Origin: DATDCY01 sp031406795 [NCBI: Candidatus Rokuibacteriota bacterium]
Lineage (GTDB): Bacteria > JAUVQV01
DNA: 43,045 nt
Direction of reading: 5' to 3'
Assembly: GCA_031406795.1 (NCBI GenBank)
Contig: JANOHV010000271.1
Span: forward strand, 1 to 43,045
Made by a program: the position numbers and the translations under genes. The notes below the pieces were generated by a model, which made no database searches, had not been told where the DNA came from, and saw only the letters and a list, made by a program, of their open reading frames with translations. Numbering within the stretch: the first letter of the stretch is position 1; each line of letters opens with the position of its first letter. Shown here one piece after another: positions 26,946 through 37,521 of this stretch.

Positions 26946-27140
26946 TCAGGTCTGTTCCGGAACGGCCCCGGGTGTCCAGGGGAGAGCCTCCTCGAAGATC
27001 ATCACGGGGATGTCGTCCGTGATGGGATAGGCGACGCCGCAGCGCGGGCAACCGAGCGCAGCCGCATCGGGAGTCAGGATCAGTCCTCCCTTGCAGCAGG
27101 GACAGGCGAGAATCTCGAGCAAACCAGGAGCCAGGCTCAT
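26946..27140 (-). CDS. Trm112 family (YcaR-like) small zinc-ribbon protein
   Basis: The 64-residue protein shows the Trm112/UPF0434 pattern: [16 protein letters not shown] at the start, a second CPRCG knuckle at about residue 33, and the conserved [12 protein letters not shown]. YcaR lies next to kdsB in Escherichia coli, and here it heads the same LPS set. Family members activate methyltransferases in eukaryotes; the bacterial role is unclear. A near-perfect promoter ends only 8 bases before its ATG, so the mRNA may be leaderless. Confidence 0.88.
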
Positions 27141-27148
27141 GGGTGCCG

Positions 27149-27176
27149 ATTATACCGGCAGCGGCCGGTTTGTCAA
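27149..27176 (-). promoter_or_regulatory. consensus promoter for trm112-hldE-kdsB
   Basis: The minus strand has perfect TTGACA and TATAAT hexamers separated by 16 bases. The -10 box ends 8 bases before the trm112 ATG, so transcription should begin within about one or two bases of the start codon. Confidence 0.75.
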
Positions 27177-27212: not shown

Positions 27213-27245
27213 CATCTGACAAGAGAACAACCAACAGGAGGTTTC

Positions 27246-27566
27246 ATGGTCAACGTTTCGGATGGCGCCAAGGAGAAGCTGCTCGAGTACCTCAGGACCA
27301 ACAACTCGGACCTCGCGGTTCGGGTGACCCTCTCCCACGGCTGAGGGGGGCCCTCATTGGGCTTGGTGCTGGATGCACCTAAAGCGCAGGACAAGGTTTA
27401 CGATTTCCCGCCCCTGAAGATGGTCATCGACGATTCGCTCCAGGGAGAGCTCGGGACGGTCAGCGTCGACTACAACGACTCGACGTGGCGCAGCGGCTTC
27501 AAGGTCACCTCCGCCAAGCCTCTCGGCAGCGGCGGCGGCGGCTGCGACAGCGGGAAGTGCTGCTGA
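27246..27566 (+). CDS. HesB/IscA-like selenoprotein (in-frame UGA = selenocysteine)
   Basis: Read through one TGA at 27342-27344 (codon 33), this frame gives a 106-residue HesB/IscA-like protein. The N-part MVNVSDGAKEKLLEYLRTN ... VRVTLSHG is followed by Sec and GGPSLGLVLDAP, continuing to TVSVDYNDSTWRSGFKVTS and a Cys-rich tail CDSGKCC. The TGA falls where IscA-type proteins have their first metal-binding Cys. HesB-like selenoproteins with this SHG-U context are a known family in Geobacter and relatives. A hairpin fitting a bacterial SECIS follows the UGA, and the frame is open on both sides with the family sequence intact, which argues against a pseudogene. AGGAGG lies four bases before the ATG. 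The role is probably Fe-S or metal-cluster related; it is not established. Confidence 0.88.
27362..27384 (+). promoter_or_regulatory. predicted bacterial SECIS element
   Basis: CTTGGTGC pairs with GCACC and, across a two-base TA bulge, AAG. This gives 8 bp capped by the five-base loop TGGAT. The apical loop begins 25 bases after the UGA codon, within the spacing known for bacterial SECIS hairpins, and it contains the loop guanines expected for SelB recognition. It lies inside the coding sequence. Confidence 0.7.
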
Positions 27567-27627: not shown

Positions 27628-28740
27628 ATGAAAACCGGAAAAGCCCTCCCAAAAGGCGCCGAGCGCCTCGACGCCAACCGCGAGCGGATCGATGCCATCG
27701 ATCGGCGGCTGGTGGCGTTGCTCAACCGCCGCGCCACGGTCGTGCACGCCATCGGCGAGATCAAGAAGGCGCGCGGCATCCAGGTCGTCGACGCCGGTCG
27801 CGAGGAGCAAGTCATCGCGCGCATCGAGAAGGCGAACACCGGCCCCTTCCCCAACGAGTCGCTCAGAAGCATCTATCGCGAGATCTTCACCGCGTCGCAC
27901 CAGATCGAGGAACCGCTGACGGTCGCCTACTTTGGTCCCGAGGCGACGTTCACTCACCAGGCCTGCCGTCGGGTCTTCGGGTCGGCGCCGAACACCCTGC
28001 CGAAACCGAGCATCCGCGAGGTGTTCCGCGCAGTCGAGCGCGAGGAGGCGGCCTTCGGTGTCGTTCCCGTCGAGAACTCCACCGAAGGGGTGGTGAACCA
28101 CACCCTGGACATGTTCCTCGAATCGCCGTTGACGATCCACGCCGAGGTCGTCCTCGTCGTGCACCACCATCTGCTCTCGAAGAGCGGACAACTCGCGGAG
28201 GTGCGCACTCTGTATTCGCACTACCAGCCCGTCGCGCAGTGCTCCGAATGGCTGCAGGCCCACCTGCCGGAAGTCCCGGTAAGGGAAGTCTCGAGCACCT
28301 CCGAGGCCGCGCGTCGCGCCGCGGCCGACCCGGCGGGGGCCGCGATTGCCAGCCGCCTGGCCGGAGAACTCTACGGGCTGCGCACGGTGCGGCGCAACAT
28401 CGAGGACCGCCGCGACAACGTGACCCGGTTCATCGTCATCAGCCACCGGGAGCACGAAGCGACCGGCAAGGACACGACCTCGATCCTCTTCTCGATCAAG
28501 GACCGCGTCGGCGCGCTGCACGACATTCTGCTGCCCTTCGCCCGCAAGAGCATCAATCTCACCAGAATCGAGTCCCGGCCGTCGCGTCGAAGGGCTTGGG
28601 ATTATGTATTCTTCGTCGATTTCGACGGGCACCGCGCCGATCCGGTCGTCCAGGGCGTGCTCACCCGGGTGCGCCGCTCGTGCTCCGTGCTCAAGGTCCT
28701 GGGTTCCTATCCCACCAACCGGGAGGCACAAGAACGATGA
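27628..28740 (+). CDS. pheA: bifunctional chorismate mutase / prephenate dehydratase
   Basis: The P-protein converts chorismate through prephenate to phenylpyruvate for phenylalanine synthesis. The 370-residue protein has an AroQ-type mutase domain (about residues 15-90, RIDAIDRRLVALLNRR), a dehydratase domain (about 97-275) with VAYFGPEATFTHQA, VPVENSTEGVV and the catalytic TRFIVIS, and a C-terminal ACT domain (about 285-362) with GALHDIL and the phenylalanine-binding ESRPS. Feedback inhibition by Phe is therefore likely. It has no evident ribosome site: the hairpin at 27590-27621 occupies that space. It overlaps the following aminotransferase by ATGA. Confidence 0.95.
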   Translation: MKTGKALPKGAERLDANRERIDAIDRRLVALLNRRATVVHAIGEIKKARGIQVVDAGREEQVIARIEKANTGPFPNESLRSIYREIFTASHQIEEPLTVAYFGPEATFTHQACRRVFGSAPNTLPKPSIREVFRAVEREEAAFGVVPVENSTEGVVNHTLDMFLESPLTIHAEVVLVVHHHLLSKSGQLAEVRTLYSHYQPVAQCSEWLQAHLPEVPVREVSSTSEAARRAAADPAGAAIASRLAGELYGLRTVRRNIEDRRDNVTRFIVISHREHEATGKDTTSILFSIKDRVGALHDILLPFARKSINLTRIESRPSRRRAWDYVFFVDFDGHRADPVVQGVLTRVRRSCSVLKVLGSYPTNREAQER

Positions 28741-29878: not shown

Positions 29879-31771
29879 TCAGTATTGCGTGTGGCACCGG
29901 GCGCAGAGCGACATCACCTCGCGGTCCAAAAGATTCGGAAAGTCCGAGCCGTGCGGCTGGTGGCAGCCGCTGCAGGCGAGCGCGCCGTCCCTCTTGCGGA
30001 TCGGGAAGCGGGGGGGCAGCGACGCCTTCCCGCTCGCCGGCTGTCCGGTGCCCACGTCGATTTCGACGAAGAGGTGCAGCTCGTGCACCTCGGCGTGGCA
30101 GGTGCCGCAGATGTCGAAGGCGGTCTTCTTCAGCAGCGCCTTTTCCGGACCCCCATGCGGACCATGACAGGATGAACACATCCCCGAGAGGACGGGTGTG
30201 TGCGGGACCGCCCACTCTTTTCCGTCGCTGTTGAAGTTCTTCTCCTCGTGGCAGCCCGCGCACAGCGCTCGCTGGGGGGCGGTGAGGAGGCGGCGGCTCT
30301 GCGCGACGTGCGGTACATGGCAGGCCGGGCAGCCGTCGTCGAGCGCCGGGTGCGGCACCGCCCAGGCAGTCCCCGCGGGGTCGCGTGTCGGGTCCTTGTG
30401 GCACTTCAGACACAGCTCGCGTCCGGGAGCCGCCACCAGCAGCTTCGGCAGCGCGGCGCCGTGGGGTGCATGGCAGCGCGAGCAGGCCCCCTGGGCGACC
30501 GGCAGGTGGATCGAGCCGCCCTTGGCGGCGTCAGGGGCGGCGAACGCATCGTGGCATCCGAAGCACAGCGGGGCCTGCGGGCTCTTGAGCATGCCGGCCG
30601 CCGGGGCCACGTGCGGCAGGTGGCAGGCGAAGCAGCCGTCATCCAGTGCCGCGTGAGTCGTTGTCCACTCCTTGCCCTCGGGTGTCAGTGAAGGATCGTC
30701 GTGGCACTTGATGCACAGGGCCTTGCCCGGGGCGGCCAGCAGCTTCTGGAGATCGGAGCCGTGCACCGCGTGGCAACCGGCGCATTCCCCCTCCTCCACG
30801 GGACTGTGGCGCACCAGCTGCTTCCCCCCCTCCTCCTGCGGGAAGGGGTCGTGGCAGTCGGCGCATAATTGCGCTGCCGGCTTCTTGAGCAGCCGCGGGG
30901 CCTCGGCCACGTGTGGCAGGTGGCAGGAGGGGCAGCCGTCGTCGAGCGCAGGGTGCGGCACCGCCCACGCCGCGCCGCTCTTGTTCAGCGAGGGATCGGC
31001 GTGGCAGAGCAGGCAAAGCTTGACGCCCGTTGCCGACAACAGGTTCTTCGCCGCGGCGCCGTGGGCCCCGTGGCAGCCGGTGCATTCCCCCTGCTGCACC
31101 GGGCGGTGCATCCGCTTCTTCCCGCCCGCGGTGAAGTCGTCGTGGCAGCCGAAGCACAGGCCACGTTTCGCGGCGGGCGGCAGTTGCTTGAGCGAGAGCC
31201 GGTGGAAGGCGTGGCAACCGAGGCAGTCGCCCTCCTCGGCCGGAGGGTGGAGGACCGCCTGCGGCTTGCCGTCCTTGCCCTTGAGCACGTCGTCGTGGCA
31301 ACGCGCGCACAGCGCCGGCGGTTTCTCGAGGAGGCTCGCGCCCCCCCCCCCTGAAAACTTGTGACACTCCTCGCAGCCGTTGTCGACTGCGTGGGTGTCA
31401 GGAGCGGAGAAACCGGCCGGTGCGGGCGGGGCAGTTCCTCCCCCGAGAAAGACCGTCACTTTATGATCCAGCAGGGACAGGGAATTCTCGCCGGGATCGA
31501 GCTTGATCCGGACCGTGAATGCGCCGGCCCCCACCGGCTGCGTCCTTGACCCGCTCCCGCCGGTGATCGTCAGCGAGCCGGGCGCGCCCCCGGGAAGGTA
31601 CCCGAGCAGTTCGAGAGACCCGTCGCCCGCGAGCAACGCCCGGTCGGGCGGGTAGACAATCGCCGGCGCGGTCGCCGCTCGCGCCCCGCCGGCAGACAGA
31701 CCGATAACCAGCGCGAGGAGCGCGGCGCGAATCGCCGCAACCCGACGGCTCGTCAGACCCGAATAGCCCAT
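29879..31771 (-). CDS. 20-heme c-type cytochrome with tandem tetraheme modules
   Basis: The 630-residue protein has a signal peptide ending GGARA (about residue 32), an Ig-like beta region without heme (about 33-112, with PGENSLSLLDHKVTV), then 20 CxxCH motifs over the remaining 500 residues. From 31018 down to 30116 it is built of three consecutive modules of 100, 101 and 100 residues, each with four hemes at relative positions 2, 29, 52 and 79 and recurring HPALDDGCPxCH and PHVA motifs. ATG at 31771 is chosen because it directly precedes the signal peptide; an in-frame upstream ATG at 31822 is less likely. The role is probably long-range electron transfer across or outside the envelope. No partner gene adjoins it. 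Confidence 0.93.
   Translation of the reverse strand: MGYSGLTSRRVAAIRAALLALVIGLSAGGARAATAPAIVYPPDRALLAGDGSLELLGYLPGGAPGSLTITGGSGSRTQPVGAGAFTVRIKLDPGENSLSLLDHKVTVFLGGGTAPPAPAGFSAPDTHAVDNGCEECHKFSGGGGASLLEKPPALCARCHDDVLKGKDGKPQAVLHPPAEEGDCLGCHAFHRLSLKQLPPAAKRGLCFGCHDDFTAGGKKRMHRPVQQGECTGCHGAHGAAAKNLLSATGVKLCLLCHADPSLNKSGAAWAVPHPALDDGCPSCHLPHVAEAPRLLKKPAAQLCADCHDPFPQEEGGKQLVRHSPVEEGECAGCHAVHGSDLQKLLAAPGKALCIKCHDDPSLTPEGKEWTTTHAALDDGCFACHLPHVAPAAGMLKSPQAPLCFGCHDAFAAPDAAKGGSIHLPVAQGACSRCHAPHGAALPKLLVAAPGRELCLKCHKDPTRDPAGTAWAVPHPALDDGCPACHVPHVAQSRRLLTAPQRALCAGCHEEKNFNSDGKEWAVPHTPVLSGMCSSCHGPHGGPEKALLKKTAFDICGTCHAEVHELHLFVEIDVGTGQPASGKASLPPRFPIRKRDGALACSGCHQPHGSDFPNLLDREVMSLCARCHTQY
30116..31018 (-). 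repeat. three tandem 300-bp coding repeats (tetraheme modules)
   Basis: Within the 20-heme cytochrome gene, module 1 covers 31018-30719, module 2 30718-30416 and module 3 30415-30116. Each starts with a LCxxCH codon block and contains four CxxCH motifs in the same register (spacings 27, 23, 27, then 23 to the next module). This implies internal duplication. Confidence 0.85.
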
Positions 31772-31834
31772 GGCTTCGTTCTTGAAGCAATATTCATGCT
31801 CAGCCCGCGTGCATTTTGCCAACGAAACTCATTG

Positions 31835-35599: not shown

Positions 35600-36457
35600 T
35601 CAGGCGGCCCTCCTCGCCGCGATCACCCGCTCGATGCCGCCGAGATCGCGACGGCTCGAGATTTCGACGAACCGGCCGGTCCGCTGCAGCAGCGTGCGCA
35701 CCCGGTCGGCCTGTCCCGCGCCGATCTCGAGCAGCAGCCAGCCGCCGTGACGCAGCAGCGGCGCCGCGCCCGCGACGATCCGCCCGATCAGGGCAAGTCC
35801 GTCGGGCCCGCCGTCGAGCGCCGCGCGCGGCTCGAAGTCGCGCACCTCCGCCTGGAGACCCTCGATCTCGGCCGTAGGGATGTACGGCGGGTTCGAAACG
35901 AGCGCGTCGAGCGACCCGGGACGGGCGCACAGCGGCTCGAGCAGGTCGCCTTCGCGGAACTCGATGCGGTCAGCCAGACCGTGCTCGGCGGCGTTGGCCC
36001 GCGCGACCGCGAGAGCCGGCGCCGAGCGATCGGTGCCGAGGAAAGCGCCGGCCCCAAGTTCGCGCGCCACCGCGATCACGATGGCCCCCGACCCGGTGCC
36101 GACATCCGCCACGCGCGCCCCGGGGCGGAGGCGATCGAGTGCGGCCTCGACCAGGGTCTCGGTCTCGGGACGCGGGACGAGCACGTGGGGATCGACCCGC
36201 AGGCGCAGGGACCAGAATTCACGCTCCCCGGTGACGTACGCCAGGGGGATACGCCGCGCCCGCTCCGCGAGCAGCCGCTCGTACCGCGGGGTGACCTGCG
36301 GATCCACCGGCTCGCGACCCCGGGCGAGCAGCGCCGCGCGATCAATCCCGGCAGCGTGCTCGAACAGCACGCAGGCCTCGAGACCCGCCGTCTCGATCCC
36401 GACGGCCGCCAGCCGCGCGCGGCCCCGCTCGACCGCAGCGGCGATCGTCCCCGTCAC
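35600..36457 (-). CDS. prmC: peptide chain release factor N5-glutamine methyltransferase
   Basis: PrmC methylates the Gln of the GGQ motif in release factors. The 285-residue protein has the helical N-terminal recognition domain with [13 protein letters not shown], the SAM-binding [33 protein letters not shown], and the active-site NPPY in LVSNPPYIP. Its GTG start overlaps the prfA stop as GTGA, so enzyme and substrate are co-translated, a widespread arrangement. Confidence 0.96.
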
Positions 36458-37521
36458 TCCGGGCCCCCGCTCAGCGCCATGGACTGGAAATGAGCTGCGA
36501 GCGCGTCGATCATCTCCTGGATGTCGCCCTCCATGAAGCTCTCGAGCCGGTAGATGGTCAGGCCGATCCGGTGATCGGTCACGCGGTTCTGGGGGAAATT
36601 GTAGGTCCGGATCCGCTCGCTGCGGTCCCCGGTGCCGACCATGCCCTTGCGCTCGGAGGCACGCTTCGCCGCCGCCGCCGCCTCGAGGCGATCCTTGAGG
36701 CGCGCGCGCAGGATGCGCAGGCCCTTGGCCTTGTTCTTGTGCTGGGACTTCTCGTCCTGACAGGAAACGACGAGTCCGGTCGGCAGGTGCGTAATGCGCA
36801 CCGCGGAGTCGGTCGTGTTGACGCTCTGGCCGCCGGGGCCCGAAGACCGGAAGACGTCGATCCGGAGCTCCTCGGGTTTGATGTCGATCTCGACTTCCTC
36901 CGCCTCGGGGAGCACGGCGACCGTGACGGCCGAGGTGTGAATCCGTCCACTGCCCTCGGTGACCGGCACGCGCTGCACGCGGTGGACGCCTGCCTCGTAC
37001 TTGAGGACGCTGTAGGCGCCGTGGCCCTCGACGAGGGCGATGACTTCCCGGAGGCCGCCGATGCCGGTCGAGGTCTGGCTCATGACCTCGATGCGCCAGC
37101 GCCGCCCCTCGGCGAAACGGCAGTACATCCGGAACAACTCGGCGGCGAAGAGTGCAGCCTCCTCCCCCCCCGTGCCGCCCCGGATCTCCAGAAAGGTGTT
37201 CTTGTCGTCATTCGGGTCGCGCGGCGTCAGCAGGACGCGCAGCTCGCGCTCGCTGGTCTGGAGCTGCTCGGCGAGTTCGACCAGCTCCTCCTGCGCCAGG
37301 GAGCGCAGTTCGGCGTCGCCCTCCTCGAGCAGGGCGCGGCTCTCGTCTTGACGCAGCCGCAGCTGCCGGTATTCCTGATATTTCTCGACGATCGGCCCGA
37401 CGGTGCCGCGCTCGATCATCAGCTCCCGGTAGCGCTGCCGGTCGCCGAGGACCGCAGGGTCGGCCAGCTGCCGGTCGATCTCCTCGCAGCGTTTCTCGAC
37501 TTCAGCCAGCTTGGTGAACAC
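36454..37521 (-). CDS. prfA: peptide chain release factor 1
   Basis: RF1 reads UAA and UAG stop codons. The 355-residue protein contains the GGQ peptidyl-hydrolase loop in [19 protein letters not shown], the ISxxGxxG-type [18 protein letters not shown] region and a typical C-terminal [18 protein letters not shown]. The start is GTG and lies 20 bases inside the DUF1385 gene. It precedes prmC, whose product modifies it. Confidence 0.97.

Follow-up and report, generated by a model that had tools for sequence, protein, structure and literature searches.

A gene in a 43,045-nucleotide stretch of DNA from DATDCY01 sp031406795, assigned to Candidatus Rokuibacteriota (the whole stretch is hereafter called the window), is a new member of the already described HesB-like (UxGP) selenoprotein family. 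One in-frame TGA interrupts it and, judged by comparison with its relatives, this is almost certainly a true selenocysteine (Sec)-decoding gene. Across the sequences compared, which span several phyla, the UGA of codon 33 is kept along with a stem-loop that starts 20 nt further on. What sets the window gene apart is an LDAP variant with a matching SECIS change, plus the lineage in which it is found. The features are collected in Table 1.

Table 1. Features of the HesB-like selenoprotein locus and its direct neighbours (window positions).
Feature	Position	Strand	Remarks
HesB/IscA-like selenoprotein gene	27246..27566	+	106 residues, Sec = residue 33; terminal TGA included
Shine-Dalgarno AGGAGG	27236..27241	+	4 nt upstream of ATG 27246; read from the sequence
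In-frame TGA (Sec residue 33)	27342..27344	+	aligned with the IscA-type first cluster Cys; kept in G001 and G002
Second, upstream helix (predicted)	27348..27364	+	27348-27353 with 27359-27364
Hairpin GGTGC-TGGAT-GCACC	27365..27379	+	distance from the TGA 20 nt to the stem, 25 nt to the apical loop (27370-27374); G in loop
C-terminal Cys tail CDSGKCC (C100, C105, C106)	27543..27563	+	
True stop codon TGA	27564..27566	+	G001 and G002 likewise have TGA directly after CC
pheA-type gene (chorismate mutase / prephenate dehydratase / ACT)	27628..28740	+	61 nt downstream of the selenoprotein gene
Divergent neighbour, Trm112/YcaR-like small protein	26946..27140	-	35.5 and 34.4 bits, both below curated cut-offs

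HesB-like selenoproteins are listed in earlier surveys and reviews (PMC1088965, 2005; PMC1794560, 2006; PMC9312934; PMC13188914), and the last gives the family motif as UxGP. Mutagenesis and 75Se labelling served to identify the member from Methanococcus maripaludis; its function is called not clear and, as an unpublished observation, nitrogen fixation is said not to have been impaired in a disruption mutant (PMC11097638). This agrees with the first-pass annotation, which had spoken of a described but poorly understood family, and the functions of most selenoproteins are likewise said not to be clear (PMC13188914). For selenoproteins in Rokubacteria, one literature search listed just one paper, which concerns candidate phylum KSB1.

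We assigned the family from the read-through protein. Along residues 1-101 it scored 98 bits with NCBIfam NF038090 (IscA_HesB_Se), for which the cut-off is 85, and it stayed under the cut-off of TIGR01911 (HesB_rel_seleno; 45 bits, cut-off 66.35), the model that reviews cite for HesB-like selenoproteins; because only the NF038090 cut-off was passed, the gene is filed under NF038090 and not under TIGR01911. The general family model, Pfam PF01521, scored slightly below its cut-off (25.4 bits, E 1.8e-5, cut-off 26.3). The UxGP motif is present as UGGP at residues 33-36. A profile of 77 sequences (the window protein and 76 relatives) matched six solved IscA-family sequences, including HI1723 (2apn), AQ_1857 (1nwb), E. 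coli IscA (1r94, 1s98) and SufA (2d2a), and in the two alignments shown, to HI1723 and AQ_1857, Sec33 falls on a Cys and the tail Cys falls on a C-terminal Cys. By this alignment the Sec does replace the first cluster cysteine, as had been proposed. The AlphaFold2 model (mean pLDDT 83.8, pTM 0.67, residues 95-99 below 50) has a predicted fold that matches IscA 1r94 (TM 0.74 by query, 0.80 by target). With the NF038090 score, the alignment to solved proteins, the predicted fold and the TGA kept in relatives, the earlier call of a HesB/IscA-like selenoprotein is upheld, more exactly as a HesB-like selenoprotein; the protein is no classical IscA, PF01521 being below its cut-off and the tail reading CDSGKCC instead of CxC.

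With the described HesB-like selenoproteins the window gene shares the Sec at the first Cys in UGGP, its length, a SECIS-type hairpin directly after the UGA and the tail cysteines. It differs from the family norm by Ala44 in place of the usual Glu (LDAP vs LDEP), with a matching codon change, and also by its tail CDSGKCC, its score below the TIGR01911 cut-off and its Rokuibacteriota-related lineage; the LDAP variant is also found in 6 other sequences among 117. Classical A-type carriers are marked by a first Cys and a C-terminal CxC. IscA, SufA and ErpA (PF01521) resemble the window protein in predicted fold, in length and in the positions of the first ligand and the tail Cys, whereas the window protein has Sec for Cys, GGP instead of SGF after it, no C-terminal CxC and a PF01521 score below cut-off. 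The same predicted fold is shared (E 5e-4) by DsrR (2k4z), an IscA-like protein of Allochromatium vinosum that takes part in sulfur oxidation and is not known to carry the cluster cysteines; unlike DsrR, the window protein has Sec and tail cysteines.

We searched for relatives with a degenerate DNA motif made of the TGA and the codons of a following GGPxLGL(A/V)LD. This motif occurs once in the window against 0.00 expected (100 shuffles), and in at least 119 stretches of an 84,980-genome collection, labelled Desulfuromonadales, other deltaproteobacteria, Bacillota, Spirochaetes, Gemmatimonadetes, Delongbacteria, Zixiibacteriota and others. Among the loci listed, BLAST ranked L060 first (55% identity over 82 residues); it lies in a Candidatus Rokuibacteriota MAG (genome G001). 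Genome G002, from the same phylum, is closer to the window: it shows 76% DNA identity over 2.1 kb including the selenoprotein gene, its 11.2-kb contig is mostly colinear with the window, and its Lon protease is 82% identical to that of the window (72% for G001). G001 and G002 are the nearest relatives among the matches listed, which makes their lineage the probable source of the window. Residues that appear invariant among the pattern-found sequences are largely fixed by the search pattern; a profile found variants with UAGP (L173, L176, L177), with USGP (L165) and with Val for the usual Asp (L168). By a profile that does not require the TGA, a one-TGA gene was found in 2/2 genomes searched of the G001/G002 phylum, and in another phylum 7 of 195 genomes matched at E <= 1e-17, all 7 with one TGA. 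The 119 genomes of the phylum of G005 gave 13 matches, none over the cut-off, of which 6 have the TGA and 7, namely six IscA-type proteins and L159, do not. Viral contigs yielded no tblastn relative and 0 pattern matches. Among plasmids, seven records matched distantly (24-30% identity); the proteins concerned are annotated either as 'adhesin' or as belonging to iron-sulfur cluster biosynthesis.

The start, the internal TGA and the end of the gene all lie where the first-pass annotation had placed them, and the start is preceded by the good ribosome site that it had pointed out (Table 1). As read from the sequence, frame 27246-27563 is open except for the one TGA, with Sec33 in the context SHGUGGPSLGLVLDAP. 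Third-position GC is 0.91 on the 5' side of the TGA and 0.86 on the 3' side. Compared with G002, dN is 0.095 and dS 0.504 before the TGA, and 0.209 and 0.715 after it, so that both halves of the gene look constrained; the 13 codons directly 3' of the TGA carry 5 synonymous and 0 amino-acid differences. Frame and codon use thus run on unbroken past the TGA, as claimed. We also considered whether the terminal TGA might encode a second Sec and rejected this idea: G001 and G002 likewise stop with TGA after CC, and the sequence beyond aligns poorly, which leaves no sign of one.

Bacterial SECIS elements are described in PMC1088965 as hairpins shortly 3' of the UGA with a small apical loop that carries a G. 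The first-pass annotation had pointed to a hairpin with SECIS spacing in the window; taken alone, this hairpin is unremarkable (z = -1.86; 12 of 200 shuffled sequences reach an equal or better fold, and the same 5-bp stem arises in 14% of synonymous recodings of the window), and it is the comparison of sequences across the family that is decisive. Of 117 distinct sequences, 114 (all except L025, L029 and L108) can form a 4-bp stem in register, against a mean of 15.6 and a maximum of 27 in 200 synonymous shuffles, and 106 can form a 5-bp stem, against a mean of 5.8 and a maximum of 14. These counts exclude L094 (run of N) and L107 (no start codon near the TGA, no tail Cys), which, if a true member, speaks against this picture of the family, and they are partly conditioned by the search pattern, which fixes some bases of the 5' arm and loop and leaves columns 24, 27, 30 and 34-39 free. 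The members found by profile are therefore a cleaner test: all 14 TGA members shown from that search have the 4-bp stem, 5 of them being re-finds of pattern loci.

Because the stem lies in codons, compensatory changes can be read off directly. The codon pairs flanking the loop are GCT/GAG (Ala/Glu) in 91 of the 117 sequences, GTT/GAA (Val/Glu) in 17, GCG/GCG (Ala/Ala) in 5 and GTG/GCA (Val/Ala) in 2, the window and G002, with two exceptions to all pairs; the loop itself is TGGAT or TGGAC in 116/117. Alignment A2 keeps 125 rows once L107, duplicate and short sequences and those containing N are left out. Its paired cells amount to 96.3% (86.6% after shuffling), two-sided changes affect 59 cells (10.7 after shuffling), and its covariation score is 0.356 (0.174 after shuffling). 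Columns 27 and 35 pair in 125/125 rows (118 UA, 7 GC), and slid versions of the stem pair at most 52.7% of cells; one of these (+3) reaches 41 two-sided changes, though with only 32.3% of cells paired. Further pair types are not in excess (9 vs 8.9 shuffled). With the stem at SECIS spacing, kept far above the shuffled expectation and accompanied by paired codon changes, the earlier reading of the hairpin holds. For the second, upstream helix, three pairs are predicted across the family (columns 10-12 with 18-20); two of these hardly vary and the other is broken in 33/125 rows, so that the helix is weakly supported.

The stem is incomplete in 7/7 Cys homologues, a control in which six are IscA-type proteins with differing amino acids at the stem and the seventh, L159, is HesB-like and keeps 4/5 of the SECIS-type pairs. 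L159 resembles in this the Desulfitobacterium hafniense HesB-like protein, for which a figure legend reports a remnant SECIS (PMC1794560). In its genome, G017, this Cys form stands beside a Sec paralogue, L170, whose stem is intact, and the two possibly record a Sec-to-Cys change. Other amino acids surround the loop in L170, L168 and L165 and the stem is kept, for example with A-T for G-C at columns 25-37; L168 combines its Val with the unusual loop TTGTA.

Components of Sec decoding were found in G001 and G002, which are relatives and not the source genome: both have SelA, SelB, SelD and a tRNA-Sec with anticodon TCA (UCA in the tRNA). The tRNA-Sec scores are 67.9 and 71.9 bits, above the Rfam cut-off; the SelB match of G001 covers only positions 2-399 of 581, and the SelD genes of G001 and G002 have one TGA each. 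Among 14 genomes examined, of unstated completeness and with G014 (the genome of L107) kept for these counts, the cut-off was passed by 9 for tRNA-Sec (missed in G008, G009, G012, G013 and G014), by 12 for SelB (missed in G009 and G011) and by 12 for SelD (missed in G006 and G014). In the control genomes tRNA-Sec passed its cut-off in 5/14 and SelA was matched in 2/14, so the tRNA-Sec model alone is not specific.

A mutated Cys codon, whether in a pseudogene or through a sequencing error, would also give a single in-frame TGA in an otherwise intact gene, and the record comes without reads; we nevertheless consider this origin very improbable, as the same TGA occurs in two relatives and more than 100 other loci and the hairpin is kept by compensatory changes. 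A pseudogene is, moreover, not expected to show such constraint 3' of the TGA, so the dN/dS values and the 13 conserved codons speak against it. More improbable still is a reassigned code in which TGA stands for an ordinary residue and no Sec is made. Only the place of the TGA inside an open frame favours this idea, while 21 of the 32 window ORFs selected by composition end in TGA (one being the 3' part of the selenoprotein gene), including Era, RecO, RibD and prfA, G001 and G002 have the TCA tRNA-Sec, and a SECIS-type hairpin would be needless under such a code.

The surroundings of the gene were also inspected. The pheA-type gene downstream is colinear in G002; a selenoprotein-pheA operon was considered on this ground and on the 61-nt distance but was not called, the two genes being about 1.2 kb apart in G001. 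On the other side, a perfect TTGACA-16-TATAAT promoter lies at 27149-27176 (-) (12/12 positions; shuffles give a mean of 0.1 promoter-like sites), and because it ends 8 nt before ATG 27140 the Trm112-like transcript would be nearly leaderless. Elsewhere in the window, positions 29879-31822 (-) encode, among amino-acid biosynthesis genes, a multihaem c-type cytochrome (647 aa; 9-10 doubled CXXCH stretches) that passes the threshold of the decahaem model for the DmsE family. The prfA gene lies at 36454-37521 (-); its product, release factor 1, is not known to read UGA. Across the family, where one representative per cluster was scanned for identity, neighbour clusters are lineage-specific, the largest being present in 11 loci. 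Six loci (L026, L048, L062, L068, L071 and L112) have a CcdA/DsbD-type membrane protein together with a TlpA/AhpC-type protein on the same strand within 3.5 kb. Because the clusters are lineage-specific, and the cytochrome bd and desulfoferrodoxin genes seen at some loci stand on the opposite strand, we drew no function from the neighbours.

As is established for Sec decoding in bacteria, the loop would be bound by SelB together with Sec-tRNA(UCA), and Sec would be inserted instead of termination. The product would then take the IscA (A-type carrier) fold predicted by the model, with Sec33 at the first cluster-Cys position and a flexible C-terminal tail that usually bears one to three cysteines. 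Of 113 sequences (window included, near-identical species not merged, and L107, L094, L009, L044, L067, L116 and L119 left out), 112 have a tail Cys and 53 have exactly one; the first Cys after Sec stands at 62-63 residues in 57/112, and a CxC is found in the tail of 6/113. With somewhat less than even confidence, we propose that Sec33 and the tail Cys form a selenolate/thiolate site that may bind an Fe-S cluster or a metal; the tail without CxC and the single tail Cys in 53/113 count against this step. We hold such a site to be slightly more likely than selenol/thiol redox chemistry through a Sec33-tail Cys selenenyl-sulfide, in which the protein would be a true selenoprotein and no Fe-S or metal carrier, a serious though not favoured alternative. 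A review considers most uncharacterised selenoproteins likely to be redox proteins (PMC13188914), one Sec and one tail Cys are also the minimal set common to the family, and neighbours within 3.5 kb include, on the same strand, CcdA/DsbD-type (6 loci) and TlpA/AhpC-type proteins (6 loci), as well as cytochrome bd subunit II (10 loci) and subunit I (7 loci) and desulfoferrodoxin (5 loci). However, the window has no CxxU or UxxC motif, the predicted fold is that of IscA and not of thioredoxin, every cytochrome bd or desulfoferrodoxin neighbour lies on the strand opposite to the Sec gene, and no neighbour is common to the family.

HesB-like selenoproteins could conceivably fill the place of A-type carriers in anaerobic lineages reported as having none, a hypothesis to which we give a low probability. 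According to PMC2682760, A-type carriers, as defined by PF01521, are missing in all Spirochaetes as well as in many Firmicutes and Deltaproteobacteria, and the Sec-form loci include names from these groups. A PF01521 survey would miss Sec forms, because such proteins would be cut at the TGA in annotation. Over 22 genomes with the Sec gene, of unstated completeness, PF01521 gave a stop-free match in 4 (G004, G008, G009, there partial, and G010), only TGA-bearing matches in 6 and no match in 12; in these 12 it misses the Sec form itself, and L159 in G017 was likewise not reported. As 18/22 genomes are without a stop-free match, a count that covers genomes with the Sec gene only and has no baseline, the Sec protein might stand in for an A-type carrier. 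PF01521 was matched in 9/14 control genomes.

Altogether, the window gene, from a little-studied uncultured lineage, is a well-supported example of what standard annotation would break in two, and the family comparison shows a SECIS in which the codons before and after the loop change together, even where the amino acid changes. Should classical A-type carriers still prove scarce beside this gene once a proper baseline is set, their function could be tested for directly in the Sec protein; and if the Sec protein does act in their place, its selenolate ligand would make it a distinct class of carrier.
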